This document shows positions 10,914-14,752 of a stretch of 34,558 nt of DNA, in pieces. A program made the position numbers and the translations under genes. Within the stretch, counting starts at the first letter, position 1. Each line of letters opens with the position of its first letter. The notes beneath the pieces are model-generated. The model saw only the letters and a list, made by a program, of their open reading frames with translations, had not been told where the DNA came from and made no database searches. The stretch is from Minisyncoccota bacterium (GTDB lineage Bacteria; Patescibacteriota; Minisyncoccia; Phycocordibacterales; JAGLOS01): NCBI GenBank assembly GCA_023137615.1, contig JAGLOS010000006.1, positions 1 to 34,558 on the forward strand. The letters run 5' to 3'.

Positions 10914-11300
10914 TTAGTGGTCTAATAATTTTTCATAATTTTTAATTGCAGTACAAAGTGTTCCATAAGCAAGTAAAGCACATTTAGTACGCCCCGGGCT
11001 TATGGTAATACCCAGCATGGTATAAATATCTCCCGGTGTTAACAATTTTATATTTTCAACACTCATTCCTTTCACTTTGTCAGTAAGCATCGATGCGGCC
11101 GCTTGTGATATTGCACACCCGTCTCCTTCAAAAGACACATCTTCAACAACACCATTTCCAATATTGAGATACAGAACCAGACTGTCTCCGCAACTAACAT
11201 TCTTTCCATCCTGCTTTATTGAACAAGGTGAGAAAATTCCTTTATTGTGAGGGTGCTTGTAGTGGTCCAATATATTCTGTTTATATATCTCTTCATCCAT
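10914..11300 (-). CDS. sufU: SufU-type sulfur relay / scaffold protein
   Basis: The 128-aa product opens with YKQNILDHYKHPHNKG, typical of the NifU_N/IscU/SufU fold. The three conserved cysteines are in VSCGDS (with the conserved Asp), GDGCAIS and TKCALLAY. The SPGRTKCALL segment resembles SufU more than IscU, and the partner genes are suf. SufU accepts sulfur from SufS in Gram-positive bacteria. The stretch between the second and third cysteine is about 20 residues shorter than in B. subtilis SufU, so the usual SufU insertion is reduced. A good promoter lies immediately upstream. Confidence 0.92.
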   Translation of the reverse strand: MDEEIYKQNILDHYKHPHNKGIFSPCSIKQDGKNVSCGDSLVLYLNIGNGVVEDVSFEGDGCAISQAAASMLTDKVKGMSVENIKLLTPGDIYTMLGITISPGRTKCALLAYGTLCTAIKNYEKLLDH

Positions 11301-11344: not shown

Positions 11345-11367
11345 AAGGTCCGGATATTCCGGACCTT
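11345..11367. terminator. 10-bp hairpin, probable terminator
   Basis: AAGGTCCGGA / TCCGGACCTT with a 3-base loop. GTGTTTTT follows on the plus strand and TTAATATTTG on the minus strand. It separates the region below the small-RNA unit from the sufU promoter, so termination of minus-strand transcription is the likely role. Confidence 0.65.
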
Positions 11368-11384: not shown

Positions 11385-11594
11385 TTATTTTTTAGCAAAA
11401 TTTTTCAGCTTTGCTATTTTTTCCTCTTTTCTTTTTTCTCTCATTTCATTCTTTTCTTCTTTTTCTTTCTTCTTTTTATTTTTAGAGAAAGGAATCTTTT
11501 CTCTTTTTCGGCTTCTTCCTTGGTATCTTCTTCGAGAAATTCGAGAAGTTTTAATCTTTTGATTTAAAATAAAAGAACATTCTATTTCTACCAT
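11385..11594 (-). CDS. Small Lys-rich ORF, doubtful
   Basis: The ORF track starts at 11645, but its first 17 codons run through the intrinsic terminator at 11601-11627, so the only sensible start is the ATG at 11594 (69 aa, MVEIECSFILNQKIK...). The product is extremely Lys/Arg/Glu-rich and matches no family I know. A second frame reads IKRLKLLEFLEEDTKEEAEK over the first half, which looks equally protein-like, so this may be a frameshifted relic or non-coding A-rich sequence. No promoter or SD directly precedes it. Confidence 0.3.
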   Translation of the reverse strand: MVEIECSFILNQKIKTSRISRRRYQGRSRKREKIPFSKNKKKKEKEEKNEMREKRKEEKIAKLKNFAKK

Positions 11595-11600
11595 ATATAT

Positions 11601-11627
11601 AAAAATAACGGGTCGTGAGCCCGTTTT
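11601..11627 (-). terminator. Intrinsic terminator of the small RNA unit
   Basis: Minus strand AACGGG / CCCGTT stem with loop CTCACGA, followed by ATTTTT. It is a compact GC-clamped terminator about 60-75 bases after a strong promoter. Confidence 0.8.
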
Positions 11628-11677
11628 AAATAATAAAACGGACACTCCACGTCATATGTATTCATATGTAGTGACCA
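11601..11677 (-). ncRNA. Candidate small structured RNA in the suf cluster
   Basis: From the predicted start (~11677), the minus-strand transcript begins with GGTCACT, which pairs with AGTGTCC (7 positions, one U-U mismatch). An asymmetric internal loop (A opposite ACGTGG) follows, then a perfect CATATG/CATATG helix capped by AATA. An A/T-rich linker leads to the terminator. There is no start codon followed by a useful ORF before the terminator. So promoter, ~77-nt structured RNA and terminator form a self-contained unit between sufS and sufU. It matches no RNA family I recognise. It could be a free sRNA or a terminator-controlled leader for the genes below. The structure was folded by eye. 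Confidence 0.55.
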
Positions 11678-11683
11678 AAGAAA

Positions 11684-11711
11684 ACTATACTCTTTTTGAA
11701 AGATATGTCAA
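11684..11711 (-). promoter_or_regulatory. Strong promoter of the small RNA unit
   Basis: Minus-strand TTGACA, 16-bp spacer, TATAGT. It has a consensus -35 box and lies downstream of the sufS stop, outside any gene. Confidence 0.8.
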
Positions 11712-11766: not shown

Positions 11767-12984
11767 TTATTTAAAGGTCTTGACCGCCTTTTGCAATGAC
11801 AAGATCAAACGATCCACATCATTTTTTGTATTATAAAAATACAAACTCATTCGTGCCGTCGCAGATAAACCCAATTCCTCAATAAGCGGCATCGCGCAAT
11901 GATGTCCTGCCCGTATTGCGACATTATTTTGTCCGGCTATTTGAGCAATATCATGGGGATGTATCCCGTCGATCGTAAATGAAACAATTCCGGTATTCTT
12001 TCGGACATCTGCCTCTACATACACAGTAAGTCCTTCTATTTTTTTCAACTCTTGCATTGCGTATTCTACAAGATCAGCAACGATACTATGTATTGCTTTC
12101 GTACCTCCGATATCCTCAAGATATGTAACGGCGGCGGCAAGTCCGATCACACCCGCTATATTTGACGTACCTGCCTCAAATCGAGAAATATCATCTGCCC
12201 ATGTCGCCCTATCTTTTTCCACAACATCTATCATGCTACCACCGAAGAATCCGGGATAAAGAGAATTTAATCGTTCTTTTTTCCCATATAAAACTCCAAT
12301 ACCTGTTGGACCACATATCTTATGTCCGGAGAAATAAAGAAAATCAACACCCAAATGGTGCACATCGACCGGAATATGCCCAACCGCAGCCGTCGCATCC
12401 GAAATAACGATCGCTCCAACTTTATGTCCCAATGCCACTATTTTCGAAATATCATGAATTGTTCCCAAAACATTGCTCGCAAGCATTACAGAAACGATCT
12501 TGGTCCTCTCTGTGATCAACTCTGCCGCCTTGTTATAGTCCAGTTCAAAATTATTTGCCAATGGAATATATTTCATCACAAGTTTTTTTCTTCGTGCAAA
12601 TTCCTGCAAAGGAACAATTGACGCATGATGTTCCGTAATACTTATCACGATCTCATCTCCCTCTTGCAGATCAAATGTATTCTCAAGAGCATAGACAAGC
12701 ATATTTGAAGAAGCTGTCGCACCTGCCGTAAAAATGACCTCGTCTGTACCCGCATGTATAAATTCCGCGACCCTCTCCCGTGCTTTTTCGTATTCTTGTG
12801 TTGCTTTTTCCGCTACAGGATATAACCCACGATGGATACTGGCGCGGTAGTTTGTATAATAATCTGAAATAGCATCGATCACACTCTGTGGCGTTTGAGA
12901 AGTTGCCGCCGTATCAAGATACGCAAATGTATTATCTTTCAGTACCGGAAAATCTTTTTTGATATGTTCAAACGTATTATGCAT
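11767..12984 (-). CDS. sufS: SufS cysteine desulfurase
   Basis: The 405-aa product is a class II (SufS/CsdA) PLP-dependent cysteine desulfurase. The PLP lysine is in FSGHKICGPTGIG. The catalytic cysteine is in IRAGHHCAMPLIEELG. ITEHHAS and LDTAATSQTP (PLP site, N-terminus) are also typical. It takes sulfur from cysteine and passes it as persulfide, here probably to SufU. Length is normal. It starts one base after sufD's stop, so the two are co-transcribed. Confidence 0.96.
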   Translation of the reverse strand: MHNTFEHIKKDFPVLKDNTFAYLDTAATSQTPQSVIDAISDYYTNYRASIHRGLYPVAEKATQEYEKARERVAEFIHAGTDEVIFTAGATASSNMLVYALENTFDLQEGDEIVISITEHHASIVPLQEFARRKKLVMKYIPLANNFELDYNKAAELITERTKIVSVMLASNVLGTIHDISKIVALGHKVGAIVISDATAAVGHIPVDVHHLGVDFLYFSGHKICGPTGIGVLYGKKERLNSLYPGFFGGSMIDVVEKDRATWADDISRFEAGTSNIAGVIGLAAAVTYLEDIGGTKAIHSIVADLVEYAMQELKKIEGLTVYVEADVRKNTGIVSFTIDGIHPHDIAQIAGQNNVAIRAGHHCAMPLIEELGLSATARMSLYFYNTKNDVDRLILSLQKAVKTFK

Positions 12985-14470: not shown

Positions 14471-14752
14471 ATGGCTGAAGACATACGAAAGATCAAACTT
14501 ATAATAGAGCAGTACACATTGTTGACCAAAAGAGAAGAGATTGACCTGATAACAACACTTCATAATACACGACCGGAATATGCCCATGTATTAGCAAATC
14601 TTTTTGAACAAGATCCGCGTTGGGCTGAACAATTCTACCAAAACTACCAAGCAAAGAAACGCGCCGCGATCAACCGCAACGTTGAAGAATGGAACGCTAT
14701 TATAGAAAATGAACTACGTGATATAAGCGAGTATTTTGTAGATCAAGAATAA
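14471..14752 (+). CDS. 93-aa small helical protein, unknown
   Basis: The product begins MAEDIRKIKLIIEQYTLLTK, contains DPRWAEQFYQNYQAKKRAAIN and ends RDISEYFVDQE. It is entirely soluble and predicted helical, with an acidic C-terminus. I know no family for it. It ends four bases before the sufB stop codon (convergent) and lies on the opposite strand between sufB and sufD. It follows the 47-aa gene and is probably co-transcribed with it. A toxin-antitoxin reading is possible from the two-small-gene format, but no motif supports it. Confidence 0.65.
   Translation: MAEDIRKIKLIIEQYTLLTKREEIDLITTLHNTRPEYAHVLANLFEQDPRWAEQFYQNYQAKKRAAINRNVEEWNAIIENELRDISEYFVDQE

Follow-up and report, generated by a model that had tools for sequence, protein, structure and literature searches.

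What does a compact promoter, hairpin and terminator unit contribute when it lies between two genes for Fe-S assembly: a small RNA, a regulated leader, or merely the boundary between two transcription units? In the window (the whole stretch of 34,558 nt that was analysed), which comes from an organism with a 0.77-Mb genome, sufS and sufU are separated by 466 nt, and the promoter, the stems P1/P2, hairpin A and the terminator are all encoded on the minus strand within this gap (Table 1). The sequence-only reading of this DNA had placed the unit between sufS and sufU, and this placement was borne out by matches to curated models for both genes; sufC was recognized in the same way (TIGR01978, 291 bits, above cut-off). 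Elsewhere in the cluster, a 93-aa ORF (window 14471-14752) is located between sufB and sufD on the plus strand, opposite to the suf genes, and had no match in Pfam or NCBIfam.

Table 1. Features of the sufS-sufU region, in window positions, and the nusA leader of the same genome, in positions of its locus
Feature	Position	Strand	Remark
sufS, upstream gene	11767..12984	-	TIGR01979, 480 bits, above cut-off
Sigma-70-type promoter TTGACA-N16-TATAGT	11684..11711	-	11/12 matches
P1 (GGUCACU/AGUGUCC, U.U mismatch) and P2 (CAUAUG-AAUA-CAUAUG)	11640..11676	-	not better than shuffles
Hairpin A, competing (antiterminator-like), GUCCGUUUUA-UUAUU-UAAAACGGGC, 10 bp	11619..11643	-	P(A)=0.97 at equilibrium
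Intrinsic terminator AACGGG-CUCACGA-CCCGUU, then AUUUUUAUA	11598..11625	-	hairpin proper 11625-11607
86-aa K-rich stop-free frame, GTG start, downstream	11385..11645	-	probably not a gene
Second terminator-like hairpin AAGGTCCGGATATTCCGGACCTT, 10-bp, bidirectional, upstream of sufU	11345..11367	.	followed by a weak promoter-like site
sufU, downstream gene	10914..11300	-	TIGR01994, 113 bits, above cut-off; then sufC and SufT/DUF59-like gene
nusA leader, own genome	L101, 1444-1528	-	promoter then intrinsic terminator

The promoter of the unit

The TTGACA-16-TATAGT promoter that had been proposed is present, and transcription is predicted to start around position 11676 of the minus strand (GGUCACUACAUAUGAAUACAUAUGACGUGGAGUGUCCGUUUUAUUAUUUAAAACGGGCUCACGACCCGUUAUUUUUAUA). 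Promoter-like matches overall occur at chance level in the region (25 vs 27.1), while the strict class TTGACA-N-TATANT has 10 copies genome-wide, compared with one copy of the reversed pattern used as a control. None of these ten sites lies within an ORF of the same strand. Two of them coincide in part with an antisense frame, and the majority are located 57-165 nt upstream of an ORF. Given the 10:1 excess over the reversed control and the intergenic placement, the promoter at 11711-11684 is credible and of a plausible type, and it may be in use.

Promoters from different families of the order (in L095, L004, L008 and L016) share with that of the window not only the hexamers but also the spacer, TTGACA TATnTTTCAAAAAGAG TATAnT, and the two together may constitute an extended promoter motif. 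In L003, a promoter resembling these is followed by a tRNA-like stem and a terminator. In the same genome as the suf element, two identical promoters (TTGACAAAAAGGTATTCATCTGTATAGT) occur ~6 kb apart on contig C15 (L105 and L106), and their leaders harbor CCTTGGTTTAT...CAAGGAG elements that could base-pair with the beginning of the ORF that follows.

Competing folds around the terminator

The sequence-only reading described a two-part hairpin with an ACGUGG internal loop followed by a clean intrinsic terminator. The sequence of the former is indeed present, with A opposite ACGUGG (11652-11647) in the internal loop, but P1 contains a mismatch and the stability is at chance level: the 37 nt of P1/P2 fold at -7.9 kcal/mol, compared with -6.8 +/- 2.1 for shuffled sequences (z = -0.5), and 259 of 1000 dinucleotide shuffles (26%) fold as well. 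The terminator hairpin is likewise present, with six pairs, four of them GC, and the tail AUUUUUAU, i.e., a GC-rich stem followed by a U-tract. However, it cannot be called clean, because the predicted minimum free energy structure of the unit contains hairpin A instead, which that reading had overlooked. This hairpin engages the last bases of the 3' arm of P1 together with the entire 5' arm of the terminator and thereby masks the latter.

P1, P2 and the terminator together amount to -17.1 kcal/mol, as opposed to -21.3 kcal/mol for P2 with hairpin A and its extension. In equilibrium folds, the terminator has a probability of 0.0003 in the full RNA, and hence is not the favoured fold of the nascent transcript. 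Occlusion of the first 37 nt raises this value to 0.91. When the chain was folded as it grows, P1 prevailed up to about nt 52, and hairpin A replaced it from nt 55-58, ahead of the 3' arm of the terminator. RNA reading through from sufS is predicted to mask and free the terminator likewise. Equally strong masking was obtained in only 3 of 1000 shuffles of the upstream 51 nt, a helix as long as hairpin A in 6 of 2000, and among the loci examined just 4 of 201 terminator-like sites (~2%), this one included, were masked by upstream sequence while being stable without it. The whole unit also folds better than its shuffles (z = -3.4), the source being hairpin A and the terminator and not P1/P2.

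Thus P1, hairpin A and the terminator form, in silico, mutually exclusive terminator and antiterminator helices. As modelled, this overlap is the geometry of an attenuator and not of a constitutive small RNA; the fold is suggestive of a switch at the ~1-2% level, which is not proof. Hairpin A could also have arisen incidentally when the 3' arm of the terminator was imperfectly duplicated (GUCCGUUUUAUUAUUUA / GACCCGUUAUUUUUAUA).

Relatives, downstream sequence and alternative explanations

Among the 23 members of the order in which both genes were read, the sufS-sufU gap is 4-41 nt in 18, and in L089, the closest named contig, it is 7 nt. The remaining five have gaps of 109-478 nt with nothing evident in common with this spacer. 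The 469-478 nt gaps of L059 and L069 consist of unrelated sequence and arose independently; that of L059 (469 nt) harbors hairpins and a promoter-like TTGTCA-17-TATAAT directly before sufU. Homologs of the element were found neither by DNA search of 197 genomes of the order nor by a single-sequence covariance model in 297, nor in the sole congener searched, and the region itself is not kept in the relatives examined. The best DNA matches in relatives cover the promoter or short AT-rich stretches only, one of them lying ahead of a tRNA-like stem that has a terminator, and the best covariance-model matches elsewhere are merely pairs of a hairpin with a U-tract and a terminator. The top match (35 bits; E 1.5e-4 per genome, ~0.05 over the 297 genomes) was rejected as a homolog, being such a hairpin/terminator tandem in which the internal loop is not shared. 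Rfam scans at gathering and permissive thresholds gave nothing credible for the element; no tRNA or tmRNA was detected in it, viral and GTDB contigs scanned for its pattern contained none, and BLAST against phage, plasmid and E. coli sequences returned single short chance matches at most. Neither a conserved sensor domain nor a covarying sensor helix was found in these genomes or in Rfam, and our literature search found no description of a comparable element in suf operons. Judged from these comparisons, the arrangement is confined to this genome, and it is tied to suf by location alone.

Downstream of the terminator, there is no obvious regulated gene: sufU starts ~300 nt further on, with the second hairpin in between. 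A weak promoter-like TTGAAA-16-TATTAT (10/12) follows this hairpin immediately ahead of sufU. The 86-aa frame had no family match in Pfam or NCBIfam, and no codon signal was seen in any frame, although this is weak evidence, as a genuine gene of the window has a K-rich stretch that scores low too. A decayed known gene was considered for these ~300 nt and rejected, as family match, codon signal and genome copy were all lacking.

An operon boundary or an attenuator is a more likely identity for the element than a conserved small RNA. The most economical view, which is our best reading, is that a lineage-specific spacer closes one suf transcription unit and opens the next, and contains a predicted conditional terminator. 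In its full form, in which a non-coding 466-nt spacer splits suf and carries its own promoter towards sufU followed by that terminator, we hold this explanation tentatively, as somewhat short of probable. The spacer would divide the cluster into sufD-sufS and sufU-sufC-sufT, with its promoter directed at sufU. If the first 37 nt folded into P1, or if a ribosome, protein or ligand covered them, the terminator hairpin would form and transcription would stop after ~79 nt; otherwise, hairpin A would form and RNA polymerase would continue towards sufU. This explanation draws on the class and intergenic placement of the promoter, the exclusive helices with their shift in terminator probability, the rarity of such masking among both shuffles and other terminators, the adjacency of sufS and sufU in relatives and the promoter-like site before sufU in L059. 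It is weakened by the lack of a homolog and hence of covariation, by the distance to sufU and the intervening hairpin, by the shuffle-level stability of P1/P2 and by the possible origin of hairpin A in a duplication. The earlier suggestion of a leader with a controlled terminator is supported in silico by the three-way fold. In being promoter-proximal, with three exclusive helices and a U-tract terminator, the element resembles attenuators and riboswitch expression platforms; unlike these, it lacks a recognisable aptamer or protein-binding site, is neither conserved nor matched in Rfam, and is not directly followed by a convincing regulated ORF. An attenuator of no described family that gates transcription from sufDS into sufUCT via a sensor in the first 37 nt (e.g., of Fe-S, cysteine or NusA status) is very unlikely. 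Should the switch between hairpin A and the terminator be real, an Fe-S assembly operon of such a small genome would be controlled at the RNA level from within.

An ordinary neutral spacer, in which the sufDS terminator and a promoter close to it are surrounded by leftover sequence, the hairpins overlap by accident and there is neither a regulatory switch nor a functional small RNA, is a quite conceivable if doubtful alternative. It accords with the occurrence in a single genome, the unrelated spacers of the five relatives, the nature of the covariance-model matches elsewhere and the chance-level P1/P2, and terminator-like sites are frequent enough (~9 on the minus strand in 8.5 kb) for one to be expected fairly often less than 120 nt from a promoter; the rare masking and a promoter quality well over background argue against it. 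The main proposal of the sequence-only reading, a self-contained small RNA that would act in trans on mRNAs of suf or other genes and tune Fe-S assembly, fared worse and is unlikely. As in intrinsic-terminated bacterial small RNAs, ~79 nt are framed by an own promoter and a 3' terminator, and the folding of the whole unit favours this proposal, but the predicted fold masks the terminator, neither a conserved seed nor a target or homolog was found, and the usual spacer is only 4-41 nt. Pairing with suf start regions was indistinguishable from that of shuffled RNA: for the best, sufS, 11 of 200 shuffled RNAs were as good (uncorrected, 13 genes tested), and none of the gene starts in the window was a convincing target given the 13 genes. 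This case illustrates that the combination of promoter, hairpin and terminator may resemble a small RNA gene while fold and relatives argue against one. Least probable, and hardly to be expected, is leader-peptide attenuation, in which a ribosome on a short leader ORF would occlude hairpin A and let the terminator form. The candidate frame AUG ACG UGG AGU GUC CGU UUU AUU AUU UAA (MTWSVRFII) does terminate within hairpin A, and occlusion of at least 37 nt shifts the fold to the terminator; however, neither its AUG nor that of an overlapping 25-codon alternative (MNTYDVECPFYYLKRAHDPLFLYIW) is preceded by a Shine-Dalgarno-like sequence, and there is neither a stretch repeating one regulatory codon nor conservation.

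Leaders of nusA in the order

In the same genome, nusA is preceded by a promoter and a GUCCG...CGGGC hairpin with a U-tract that stops 26 nt short of the ATG. Across the order (L110-L136), nusA leaders harbor a promoter and then an intrinsic terminator of conserved sequence, GUCCG/GUUCG...CGGGC/CGGAC with a U-tract, commonly 20-100 nt before the ATG. The hairpins could be aligned from 22 of 28 nusA loci, and 17 of these 22 have an upstream promoter match of at least 10/12. The stem covaries, with 14 cells in which both sides changed against a shuffled mean of 4.7 (0/500 as high), and Rfam scans of 11 loci gave no match to it. In ~19 of 31 genomes, no site in the genome matches the hairpin model better than the nusA leader; the model was trained on these same hairpins, so that genome-wide uniqueness alone is informative. 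NusA of B. subtilis controls itself by NusA-stimulated termination in its own leader (PMC12288461). By analogy, the leaders of this order seem to follow that logic in a separate lineage, and their terminator is likely a NusA autoregulatory attenuator.

In common with these leaders, the suf element has a GUCCG...CGGGC hairpin downstream of a promoter. Of the nine matches to GTCCG-N-CGGGC in the genome, A/U-extended arms occur in two only, the nusA leader and hairpin A. Unlike the hairpins of the nusA leaders, hairpin A is not immediately followed by a U-tract, and a gene other than nusA lies downstream. Hairpin A was considered as a displaced nusA leader on account of its similar arms and rejected, since the nusA covariance model does not report it; for the same reason, the nusA arrangement does not explain the suf element. 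A scan of the window with the nusA model (R2) gave a match over the terminator arm (11.7 bits, E=1.2). The observation on nusA leaders is more interesting than the suf element itself and merits its own study.
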